A stretch of DNA of 33,036 nucleotides from Nitriliruptorales bacterium (GTDB lineage Bacteria; Actinomycetota; Nitriliruptoria; Euzebyales; JAHELV01). Position 1 is the stretch's first letter; each line of letters begins with the position of its first letter. A program made the position numbers and the translations under genes. The DNA lies in assembly GCA_024644015.1 (NCBI GenBank), contig JAHELV010000035.1:1-33036 (forward strand), written 5' to 3'. Below are positions 1,438 to 5,342 of the stretch, piece by piece. A model generated the notes under the pieces. That model worked only from the letters and a program-made list of their open reading frames with translations, was not told the DNA's origin and searched no databases.

Positions 1438-2835
1438 CTAGACCTTCGCCGGTTCGGGGTCGTACAGCGGGGCGCGGTGGTTCGGGCGGAGGTGCCCGGA
1501 GTTCTGCGTCACCGGGCCGGCGTGCCGTTCGATGTGGTCGGGCAGCCGGCCGTGCTCGACCAGGTACTCGTATTCGTCGCGGAAGTACTTCAGCGACGAG
1601 TCGATCGGGCTGCACGCGCCGTCGGCGAGGGCGCAGAACGCCCGCTGGAAGATCCCCGCAGTGACGTCGGTCAGGATGTCGATGTCCTCCGGACGCCCGT
1701 CGCCGTCGAGGATGCGCTGCAGGATCTGCCCCAACCAGAAGGTGCCTTCGCGGCACGGCGTGCACTTGCCGCAGCTCTCGTGCTCGTAGAAGCGCGTCCA
1801 GTTCAGCGCGGCGTCGACGACGCTCGTCCTGTGCGAGTACATCATCATCGCGGTCGTGCCCATCAGGCTGCCGGCGGCCTGGATCGACTCGAAGTCCATA
1901 GTGATGTTGTCGTGGTAGTGCTCGGCTGTGAGCAGCGGCGTCGACGAGCCGCCCGGTACCCAGAACTTGAGCTCGCGCTCGGGCAGCATGCCCAGGCAGG
2001 ACTCCTCGACGATCTGCTTGGCCGGCGTGCCCATCGGCCACTCGTAGTTGCCGGGGCGCTGGACCTCGCCCGAGACGCAGAAGACCTTGGGGCCCGGCGA
2101 CTTCTCGGTGCCGATCGAGCGGTACCAGTCGACGCCACGCTCGATGATCCACGGCACGTTCATGATCGTCTCGACGTTGTTGACCGCGGTGGGGGCCGCG
2201 TACGCCCCCGCGATCGCAGGGAACGGCGGGCGCAGACGCGGCTGGCCGCGCCGGCCTTCCAGCGCGTTGAGCAGCGCGGTCTCCTCACCGCAGATGTACG
2301 CGCCGGCTGCGTAATGCAACGTGATGTCGAAGTCGAGGTCGCTGCCCATGATCCCGGCGCCGAGGTAGCCGGCGTCATAGGCCTCGGCGATGGCCTCCTC
2401 CAGCCGGATCCCCGGCCACAGGTACTCCCCGCGCAGGAAGATGAAGCCTCGCTTGGACTTCAGCGCCCGGCCCGAGATCGCCATGCCCTCGAGCAGCTGG
2501 TGCGGGTCGCGCTCCATCAGTTCGCGGTCCTTGAAGGTCCCCGGCTCTCCCTCGTCGGCGTTGACCACCAGGTAGACGGGCTTGGGGCCGTCCAGCGGCA
2601 TGAACCCCCACTTGACACCGGTCGGGAAGCCCGCGCCGCCACGTCCGCGCAGTCCGGAGTCCTTGACCTGTTGCCGCAGATGGGCGGGATCGGCGTCGAG
2701 GACGCTGCGCAGGACCTGGTACCCGCCGGTGCGTTCGTAGCCGGCGAGCGTGTGGGCGTCGGGGACATCCCAGCGCGACGTCAGCACGCTGACCGGTTCC
2801 TGCCGCTTGCCGCCGTAGTCGCTGCGGTCAGCCAT
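1438..2835 (-). CDS. nuoF: NADH-quinone oxidoreductase subunit F (NuoF)
   Basis: A 465-residue NADH-binding flavoprotein subunit of complex I that oxidises NADH through FMN. The FMN/NADH glycine-rich loop GRGGAGFPTGVKW is at residues 64-76 and NADEGEPGTFKDR at 92-104. The N3 [4Fe-4S] ligands are visible as SCGKCTPC (C355, C358, C361) plus C401 in RAFCALADG. Length is normal for the family. The frame stays open 21 codons upstream, but the ATG at 2835 is preferred because it starts MADRSDYGG and overlaps the nuoE stop by 8 bases (ATGGCTGA), implying translational coupling. nuoG follows 7 bases downstream. Identification is certain. Confidence 0.97.
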   Translation of the reverse strand: MADRSDYGGKRQEPVSVLTSRWDVPDAHTLAGYERTGGYQVLRSVLDADPAHLRQQVKDSGLRGRGGAGFPTGVKWGFMPLDGPKPVYLVVNADEGEPGTFKDRELMERDPHQLLEGMAISGRALKSKRGFIFLRGEYLWPGIRLEEAIAEAYDAGYLGAGIMGSDLDFDITLHYAAGAYICGEETALLNALEGRRGQPRLRPPFPAIAGAYAAPTAVNNVETIMNVPWIIERGVDWYRSIGTEKSPGPKVFCVSGEVQRPGNYEWPMGTPAKQIVEESCLGMLPERELKFWVPGGSSTPLLTAEHYHDNITMDFESIQAAGSLMGTTAMMMYSHRTSVVDAALNWTRFYEHESCGKCTPCREGTFWLGQILQRILDGDGRPEDIDILTDVTAGIFQRAFCALADGACSPIDSSLKYFRDEYEYLVEHGRLPDHIERHAGPVTQNSGHLRPNHRAPLYDPEPAKV

Positions 2836-3688
2836 CGTGTGCCTTCCCGTGATCGTCACCGGCGTCGGCGGTGGTCCCCGGCGCGCCGGACCCACCACCG
2901 CGGGTCGGGGACTCTCGGGCGTCGGGTCCTGCCTGTTCCTCGACCTCCTCGGGCTCCAGACCCGCGGTCCGCACCTGTTGCTCGGCCTCGGCCCGCTGCC
3001 CGTCGGATTCCCGTGCGAGCTCCGACGTCACGACTTCCATCTCGGCCTGCGGTCCGACCTCGCTCGTGACGGGCGGCGGAGCGCCGCCATCGGTGCCTGT
3101 CGCGAAACCCAGCTCGTGGCCCCGGTCGATGTCGTCGGGGTGCGGTCCCAGCCCCGCCAGGCGGTGCGAGACCATCCGGATGCCCGGGGAGCGCAGACCG
3201 CGGGTCGGCAACGGCATGTCGCCCGACGCGACCTGGTCGAGCAGCTGCTCGGCGCCGGCCGGCGTCATGCACTCGTAGTTGAAGTAGTCAACCGACACGA
3301 CCGGTGCACCCTCGCAGTTGCCCAGGCACTCGGCGTGCTCGAACGTGAACGTGCCGTCCTCGGTGGTCTGGTTGTGACCGACCCCCAACCGCTCGGCGAG
3401 GCGGTCGTAGACGTCCTGCGCGCCGCGGACCTTGCACGAGAAGTTGGTGCACACGCTGACGAGATGCCGGCCCATCGGCTCGCGCTTGTACATCGTGTAG
3501 AACGTCGCCACCGCCATGACCTCGGCCTTCGTCAGGTCGAGCAGCTCGGCGCACTCGGTGATGCCGTCGTCGGACAGATAGCCGTCCTGCGACTGGACGA
3601 GATGGAGCAGCGGCAACAACGCCGACCGAGCGATGGGATACCGCCCGACCAGCGTCTCCGCCTTCTCCCTCAGCTCACTACTGAACAC
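2828..3688 (-). CDS. nuoE: NADH-quinone oxidoreductase subunit E (NuoE) with long acidic tail
   Basis: A 286-residue 24-kDa-type subunit of complex I with a thioredoxin-like [2Fe-2S] (N1a) domain. Ligand cysteines are C80 and C85 (VCTNFSC) and C121 and C125 (AECLGNC). The catalytic-module core ends near residue 165. The remaining roughly 120 residues are rich in Glu, Ala, Gly and Pro and look disordered; tails of this kind occur in some actinobacterial NuoE proteins, but their role is unknown. The start is the GTG at 3688, because a strong Shine-Dalgarno sequence (GGGAGGAGG, 3695-3703) lies 6 bases upstream. The frame stays open further, to 4000, but that would overlap nuoD and encode an unrelated arginine-rich stretch. 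It is separated from nuoD by an unusual 256-base gap. Confidence 0.95.
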   Translation of the reverse strand: MFSSELREKAETLVGRYPIARSALLPLLHLVQSQDGYLSDDGITECAELLDLTKAEVMAVATFYTMYKREPMGRHLVSVCTNFSCKVRGAQDVYDRLAERLGVGHNQTTEDGTFTFEHAECLGNCEGAPVVSVDYFNYECMTPAGAEQLLDQVASGDMPLPTRGLRSPGIRMVSHRLAGLGPHPDDIDRGHELGFATGTDGGAPPPVTSEVGPQAEMEVVTSELARESDGQRAEAEQQVRTAGLEPEEVEEQAGPDARESPTRGGGSGAPGTTADAGDDHGKAHDG

Positions 3689-3694
3689 CCGACG

Positions 3695-3703
3695 CCTCCT
3701 CCC
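3695..3703 (-). promoter_or_regulatory. Strong Shine-Dalgarno sequence of nuoE
   Basis: GGGAGGAGG on the minus strand, 6 bases before the GTG at 3688. It decides the nuoE start and lies 9 bases downstream of the last arm of the interleaved inverted repeats, so folding of that element could affect access to it (inference). Confidence 0.8.
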
Positions 3704-3712
3704 ATCGACCGA

Positions 3713-3868
3713 GTTCGTCCGGCACTCACGCTCCGGCTCCAGCAGGGACCCCGGCTCGCCTGGCGGCTCGCCACCCCGAGTCGCCTCCACGCGGTCGCCG
3801 GACGAACGCTCAGGGCAGAGTCGTAACCGTAGCGGGCGCGCAGGGCCGTGCGAGAGCGACTCGGGGTG
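3713..3868 (-). ncRNA. Candidate structured leader element (pseudoknot-like) between nuoD and nuoE
   Basis: Two perfect inverted repeats lie in the nuoD-nuoE gap. Helix 1 has 13-base arms at 3856-3868 and 3772-3784 (CACCCCGAGTCGC with GCGACTCGGGGTG). Helix 2 has 11-base arms at 3797-3807 and 3713-3723 (GTTCGTCCGGC with GCCGGACGAAC). Along the transcript the order is H1 5', 48 bases, H2 5', 12 bases, H1 3', 48 bases, H2 3', so the helices interleave as in an H-type pseudoknot, with two outer loops of identical length. The last arm ends 9 bases before the nuoE Shine-Dalgarno sequence. The repeats are seen directly; formation in RNA and a regulatory role are inference. Confidence 0.5.
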
Positions 3869-3944
3869 CCCGAGCCCCATGGGCGAGGGCGGGGTCCCCG
3901 CATTCTGGAGCGACAGCACGGGCCTGCGCGCCCGCGGTTGAGCG

Positions 3945-5342
3945 TCATCGGTCGACCCCGCCCATGACGGGGTCGAGCGACGCGACGCCTGCGATGACAT
4001 CCGGCAGCAGCAGACCGGCGGTCAGGTCGGCCAGCGCACCGATGTGGATGAATGACGGATCACGCACCTTCACCCGGTACGGCTTGTTCGTCCCATTGGA
4101 CGTGACGTGGTAGCCCAGCTCGCCACGCGGTGACTCGACCGCACAGTAGACCTGTCCCTCGGGCACCGCGAAGCCCTGGGTCACCAGCTTGAAGTGGTGG
4201 ATCAGGGCCTCCATCGACTGACCCATGATCTTGGAGATGTACTCGGGGGAGTTGCCGATGCCGTCCGGCCCGAGCGCCAGTTGCGCCGGCCACGCCACCT
4301 TCTTGTCGGCGACCATGACGGGGCCGCCCGGTAGCCGTGCGACCGCCTGCGACACGATCCGCAGCGACTGCCGCATCTCGTTGATGCGGACCAGATACCG
4401 GCCGAACGCGTCGGCTGTGTCGGTGACGACGACGTCGAAGTCGTACTGATCGATGCCGCAGTACGGTGCCGCCTTGCGCAGGTCATGGGCGATGCCCGTC
4501 GAACGCAGCACCGGACCGGTGACGCCGAGGTCCAGGCACTGCTCGGCGGTCAGGATCGCCACACCCTTGTTGCGCTCGACCCAGACCGGGTTGCCGGTCA
4601 GCAGATCCTCGAACTCGTCGATGCGGTCGTTCAGCTCGGCGATCGCGGTGGTCACCCGACCCGCGAACCCCTCCGGCAGGTCCTGCGCGATCCCCCCGGG
4701 CCGGATGAACGCGTGGTTCATGCGCAACCCCGTGACGAACTCGAACATGTCGAGGACGGTCTCGCGCTCGCGAAAGCCATAGATCATCGCGGTGGTCGAG
4801 CCCAGCTCCATCCCGCCCGTCGCCAGCCAGACCAGGTGGCTGGATACCCGGTTGAGCTCGGTCAGGATCACCCGGATCGCGGACGCGCGTTCCGGGACGT
4901 CGTCGGTGATGCCGAGCAGTTTCTCGACGGCCAGGCAGTATCCGAGCTCGTTGAACAGCGGTGACAGGTAGTCCATCCGGGTGACGAATGTGACGCCATG
5001 CACCCAGGGACGGAACTCCAGGTTCTTCTCGATGCCGGTGTGCAGGTACCCGATGACCGGCTTGTTGTCGACAACCGTCTCACCGTCGAGCGTGAGCACC
5101 ATGCGCAACACGCCGTGGGTCGACGGGTGCTGCGGCCCCATGTTGATGACCATCAGGTCATCTTCGACCGCGTCGGGCAGATCCTCCCACCCGCGCGACG
5201 CCACGGTGTAGGTGTGCGGCGCGGCCAGTGTGCCCGCGGCGGCGGCGATGGCGCGCTCGCGTTTGGCGGTCTCGACGGTCACGTCGTCGCCGTCGTCCCC
5301 GGCGGGACGTCCGGGCGCGACGGCTCCGGTGGCGTCAGACAT
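3945..5342 (-). CDS. nuoD: NADH-quinone oxidoreductase subunit D (NuoD)
   Basis: A 465-residue 49-kDa-type subunit of complex I that lines the quinone-binding cavity at the junction with the membrane arm. The signature [12 protein letters not shown] is at residues 69-80, followed by GYLHTGIEK near 98-106; the conserved His and Tyr of the quinone site fall in these segments. Length is slightly above the usual 400-440 because of a polar N-terminal extension of about 60 residues. The ATG at 5342 is supported by GGAGGAG 6 bases upstream, which overlaps the nuoC stop. nuoE follows only after a 256-base gap, the widest within the operon. Identification is certain. Confidence 0.97.

Follow-up and report, generated by a model that had tools for sequence, protein, structure and literature searches.

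The 256-nt gap between nuoD and nuoE (positions 3689–3944; both flanking genes on the minus strand) holds two inverted copies, termed U1 and U2, of a dispersed hairpin element of ~100 nt. The element belongs to a family with extreme stem covariation, members of which follow many genes that rank among the most important in an entire, little-studied bacterial lineage. The identity of the element is secure, and its mechanism is not. Throughout, the window refers to the whole stretch of DNA that was analysed (33,036 nt).

An inverted pair of hairpins between nuoD and nuoE

When the nuo gap was searched against its own genome, a family was recovered on contig C71, and the two halves of the gap matched each other in inverted orientation. 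The features of the region are as follows, where R1 is the covariance model of the element.

3945–5282, minus strand: nuoD (NF004739, 550 bits; start approximate)
3916–3935, no strand assigned: U2 outer stem P1, second arm; pairs with 3832–3851 and covaries
3856–3910, no strand assigned: U2 conserved tip (profile match, 38.8 bits), including the 13-bp-repeat arm 3856–3868
3832–3851, no strand assigned: U2 outer stem P1, first arm; 20-nt inverted repeat with 3916–3935 (95%), covaries
3831–3936, plus strand (putative folding strand): copy U2 (R1 match, 79 bits, E 3e-11; the covariance-model match itself is in the nuo-gene, minus, orientation)
3797–3807, no strand assigned: U1 outer stem, second arm, outer 11 bp
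3732–3786, no strand assigned: U1 conserved tip (profile match, 37.4 bits), including the 13-bp-repeat arm 3772–3784
3713–3723, no strand assigned: U1 outer stem, first arm, outer 11 bp
3711–3809, minus strand (putative folding strand, that of the nuo mRNA): copy U1 (R1 match, 70.2 bits, E 1.5e-9), inverted relative to U2 and located in the nuoE leader
3695–3703, minus strand: nuoE Shine-Dalgarno sequence GGGAGGAGG, by direct reading, 9 nt from the last arm of U1
2828–3688, minus strand: nuoE (nuoE_fam TIGR01958, 150 bits)

An earlier note on this DNA had described interleaved perfect inverted repeats in the gap. Both are present, the 11-bp repeat at 3713–3723/3797–3807 (GTTCGTCCGGC / GCCGGACGAAC, 100%) and the 13-bp repeat at 3772–3784/3856–3868 (CACCCCGAGTCGC / GCGACTCGGGGTG, 100%), and the loops between their arms measure exactly 48, 12, and 48 nt, as described. 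Direct reading likewise agreed with the distance of 9 nt between the last arm and the nuoE ribosome-binding site (plus-strand complement, cctcctccc). The longest repeat in the gap, of 20 nt at 3832–3851/3916–3935 (95% complementary), had been overlooked. The repeats are indeed unusual, but they are somewhat likelier by chance than had been guessed, with a perfect inverted repeat of at least 11 and at least 13 nt arising in 4.2 and 0.4% of 5000 dinucleotide shuffles of the gap, respectively. Similarly, the gap is as wide as was said, but calling it the only wide gap was too strong, given that rough gene calling yields other gaps of up to ~180 nt in the same gene run. Immediately beyond the gap, within the last codons of nuoD (3948–3980), there is a further 13-nt inverted repeat (92%) with a 7-nt loop.

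The earlier note read the interleaved arms as a pseudoknot. Once the overlooked stem of U2 is counted in, both hairpins are nested: the 11-bp arms are the stem of U1, and the 13-bp arms are complementary because U1 and U2 are inverted copies carrying the same conserved tip, which is equally conserved in single copies that have no partner. An H-type pseudoknot was thus rejected, since its helix A covaries as the U1 stem, and its B/B' arms are the conserved tip. A pseudoknotted translational switch or leader of nuoE would account for the interleaved perfect repeats and for the end of U1 lying so close to the ribosome-binding site, but two inverted copies of an element that occurs singly behind many other genes are enough to explain both repeats. 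Among relatives, the nuoD–nuoE gap contains both copies in one genome (G003), a single copy in another (G014), and one copy plus half of the inverted one in a third (G027); these single-copy loci largely refute the pseudoknotted switch, which we regard as very improbable. The proposed switch is not supported either, and the element is not specific to nuo: it stands behind tuf and several rps and rpo genes of the same genome. What was borne out, by the relatives' copies and by stem covariation, is the presence of a real, conserved, covarying hairpin element in the gap, which illustrates that inverted repeat copies can mimic a pseudoknot.

U2 starts 8 nt past the nuoD stop codon and is predicted to fold better on the plus strand, opposite to nuoD (−69.4 vs −64.3 kcal/mol), while U1 is predicted to fold better on the minus strand (−58.1 vs −48.8 kcal/mol). 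The predicted energy optimum of the whole gap as mRNA pairs U1 with U2 (−151.4 kcal/mol, vs −131.0 kcal/mol for two local hairpins). We do not favour this long-range pairing as the working fold, because the unit occurs singly elsewhere and would fold locally first.

Structure of the unit and covariation of its stem

In the aligned copies, the unit consists of a 20-bp outer stem (P1), a 3×3 loop (UCC/UCC along the gene, GGA/GGA on the other strand), P2 (GGC/GCC), an internal loop, P3, P4 (GUCC/GGAC), a 2×2 loop (UC/UC), and P5. The tip sequence represented by the 13-bp repeat is conserved with small variation in all full copies, while the sequence of P1 is little conserved and private to each copy. 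The arms of P1 nevertheless match each other within a copy, pairing at 16.7 of 22 positions, vs 10.1 when stems are swapped between copies. In the 21-copy alignment, 87.6% of cells are paired, compared with 35–46% when the register is slid by 1–3 columns. Two-sided changes were found at all 20 of the P1 pairs in this alignment; none of 500 shuffles and none of six slid registers did nearly as well. Orthologous copies across species differ by up to 14 compensated pairs. Compensatory change in relatives, the test proposed in the earlier note, was thus strongly positive, and on this comparative evidence P1 is under selection for pairing. In all copies, the outer stem is weakened at the same height (pairs 5–9), and most of the A·C mismatches (G·U on the other strand) are found there.

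Beyond the stem, no conserved T-rich or A-rich columns were detected on either side of the aligned copies, nor was a conserved promoter or flank. An intrinsic (Rho-independent) terminator is a GC-rich hairpin followed by a U-tract, and no U-tract follows this hairpin. Since U-tract, promoter, and conserved flank are all lacking, the element is neither a canonical terminator nor a free sRNA gene. Two other candidates were rejected: a kink-turn in the tip, because the non-bulged strand carries an extra GUC that does not match such a motif, and a MITE with terminal repeats, for which private stems and conserved tips are the wrong way round.

Gene-end positions and taxonomic range

The covariance model and BLAST each identified nine copies in the genome from which the window derives (G000), a count that is a minimum, only part of the first-look candidates having been scored. 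The copies outside the nuo gap lie on contig C71, a ribosomal-protein/RNA-polymerase region, 1–20 nt behind the stop codons of tuf (twice), rpsJ, rpsQ, rpoA, rpoB, and rpoC. Across genomes, further copies follow rpsN, infB, rpsD, and sufB, and a few weaker matches have a less clear context. The names infB (one copy), tuf, rpsJ, rpsQ, rpoA, rpoB, rpoC, nuoD, and nuoE were checked with NCBIfam profiles, while rpsN, rpsD, sufB, and the remaining infB copies were named from C-termini and gene order; gene starts come from a codon-position gene caller, and the genomes are drafts. Copies with a clear upstream gene mostly begin 0–57 nt past its stop codon, both within operons and between convergent genes. 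Their orientation relative to that gene is uniform except for U1 in two species, and a weak match in another genome (G009) may also be inverted.

R1 detected 5–9 copies in each of the four genomes of the genus and 1–3 copies in six genomes of another family of the same order (class Nitriliruptoria), both ranges being minima. No R1 match was found elsewhere in the class (66 genomes) or in ~330 sampled actinomycete genomes outside it; the E-values of R1 are rough, only part of the candidates in the genome searches was scored, and some of the distant set was assessed visually. Over the GTDB species genomes, a strict tip pattern matched only Actinomycetota MAGs, including Nitriliruptorales and Euzebyaceae, apart from one deltaproteobacterial match that is likely due to chance. 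The same pattern had no match in viral contigs, and a phage origin was rejected on this ground. Our literature search returned nothing on the motif, or on its taxon together with RNA motifs, and the family is apparently undescribed.

Positions are partly conserved and partly new. The rpoB–rpoC copy occurs at the orthologous position in three genomes, and the rpsN copy in four. In one genome, a copy (G001:C102:13679–13777; L071, L174) runs into the 3' end of a gene, whose last residues it replaces; in three congeners, the orthologues have a normal end and no element. Copies are therefore also gained. In rpoB–rpoC gaps of family f4 (L155–L164), hairpins of ~20–25 bp with a semi-conserved foot (CGCTGG..CCAGCT) were observed close behind the rpoB stop codon. 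These show the same A·C/C·U-type mismatches and have no shared tip; as the hairpin behind rpoB is not a repeated family in its genome, we do not claim homology.

Exchangeable tips

A second conserved tip, CCTTGGAGGGYGGGYGGG, was found in relatives on the same scaffold (private stem, mostly a GGA/GGA loop on the folding strand, and P2). An exact search returned it 40 times across 11 genomes of the order, and a reversed-pattern control gave no match. It lies behind rpsD, nuoD, sufB, rpoA, rpsJ, tuf, and rpsQ, genes that in other genomes are followed by the first tip. That the position is conserved whereas the tip can be exchanged points to a function linked to these gene ends. On the folding strand (e.g., G003:C25:20276–20354; L180–L209), the second tip contains four G-runs that could form a G-quadruplex. 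Three second-tip copies (G001:C59, G001:C98, and G000:C143; L187, L197, and L198) have stem and flank sequence in common (aggaggtcgttggt...), which suggests that they were recently copied.

Strand asymmetry of the stem

Mismatches in the outer stem are asymmetric. Read along the gene, there are 39 A·C and 6 G·T mismatches, which on the opposite strand become 39 G·U and 6 A·C, the pattern anticipated when the fold under selection is on that strand. General strand composition was rejected as the source of this A·C excess, given that control post-stop hairpins from the same genomes, lacking the element, had 40 A·C vs 31 G·T mismatches (Fisher p 9e-4 against the element, a value that treats copies as independent, which related copies are not fully). 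The second tip family independently repeated the pattern, with 27 G·U vs 4 A·C on the opposite strand, and in orthologues, 26 one-sided changes preserve pairing on the opposite strand, compared with 6 on the gene strand. For every one of the 21 copies, the opposite strand is also predicted to give the better fold, with a mean advantage of 9 kcal/mol, although these copies share ancestry in the tip and are not 21 independent observations. On that strand, the internal loops become GGA/GGA and tandem GA/GA. In inverted U1 copies, the bias follows the unit rather than the gene strand, which speaks against a mutational strand bias, albeit with small counts. Together, these comparisons point to selection for folding on the strand opposite the upstream gene.

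This signature contradicts the obvious reading as an mRNA hairpin, in which a sense hairpin behind the stop codon would, after cleavage, block 3'–5' exonucleases or slow the terminating ribosome, so that neighbouring cistrons obtain different mRNA levels. Such a decay or processing barrier agrees with the positions of the copies close behind stop codons, inside operons and at convergent ends, and with the very stable predicted sense fold (mean −61 kcal/mol); boundary hairpins without a U-tract are documented in E. coli (PMC5927463), and REPs near stop codons are reported to stall ribosomes (PMC12306157). However, a malE-type barrier or a near-stop REP effect fits the place and not the strand signature, because the stems avoid G·U and tolerate A·C on the mRNA strand, the opposite of what selection for mRNA pairing predicts. 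The element also stands between rpoB and rpoC, two genes for which different levels have no obvious benefit. We consider an mRNA barrier unlikely, though still a credible contender.

Strand asymmetry is equally expected if the element is a mobile hairpin recognised as single-stranded DNA, similar in principle to REP, PATE, or attC. The folded strand would then be a recombinase substrate, and position and orientation would reflect an insertion preference at gene ends on one replication strand. The lineage-specific gain in G001, with loss of the normal C-terminus, the three second-tip copies with a common stem sequence, and the inverted pair in the nuo gap are all in line with mobility. Against it, no Y1/RAYT transposase (PF01797) was found in the 10 genomes searched, while controls were positive; the stems are private to each copy rather than conserved ends; only ~9 copies were found per genome; and the same dozen genes are targeted in different families with different tips, the place being conserved. 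A mobile hairpin of this kind therefore appears distinctly unlikely.

A possible role at cistron ends

The explanation that we tentatively prefer, and would not yet call probable, is that of a boundary element at cistron ends, with the strand opposite the upstream gene as the working one. For RNA made in the direction of the gene's 3' end, whether antisense or read through from a convergent neighbour, the hairpin on that strand would most likely be a directional site of stopping, pausing, or processing. In the nuo gap, U2 would face nuoD as a directional boundary. U1 would face nuoE and form part of that gene's leader in the nuo mRNA; there, it may additionally divide the message into a nuoD and a nuoE portion. 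Several points count against this boundary model: the U-tract, promoter, and conserved flank are lacking; the working fold of U1 would precede nuoE in the nuo mRNA, and a strong terminator at that position would do harm; the hairpin on the gene strand is predicted to be very stable as well; and the wobble pattern would look no different if the folding strand acted as single-stranded DNA.

A broader version is possible but doubtful: a family of directional cistron-end elements with long private stems and interchangeable conserved tips, recognised by a factor, would act from the strand opposite the gene and shield Nitriliruptoria genes for the ribosome, RNA polymerase, and respiration from antisense or convergent transcription. 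Were it indeed the opposite strand that works, a repeated directional structure would be guarding gene ends, which is not a function that intergenic palindromes are commonly given. The U1/U2 pair in the nuo gap offers a compact site for testing opposite-strand action.

Comparison with known elements

The element resembles the structured RNA motifs of Rfam (nuoG and other cis elements) in being multi-locus and covarying around a conserved core. It differs from them in that the window had no Rfam match at the gathering threshold, and none that was relevant at a relaxed E-value; a sub-threshold CRISPR-repeat match elsewhere on one relative's locus was the only Rfam signal.

REP and BIME sequences are described as repeated intergenic palindromes, often just behind stop codons and sometimes in inverted pairs (PMC2817692; PMC12306157). 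The element is likewise extragenic, palindromic, multi-copy, and located in 3' regions. REPs usually exceed 100 copies per genome, with units of 14–40 nt in E. coli. In contrast, at least nine copies of the element were found, not hundreds; its unit of ~100 nt combines private 20-bp stems with a conserved tip; and it is limited mostly to core genes. The companion RAYT transposase of REPs (Y1, PF01797) was detected in 0 of 10 genomes (5 of 14 controls were positive), and identity with a REP/RAYT system was rejected because of this absence.

Finally, the element is similar to the intercistronic, mRNA-protecting stem-loop of the malE–malF type in that a stable hairpin without a U-tract lies between two cistrons (PMC5927463), but it differs in forming a repeated family with a conserved tip, in having two interchangeable tips, and in showing selection for pairing on the opposite strand.
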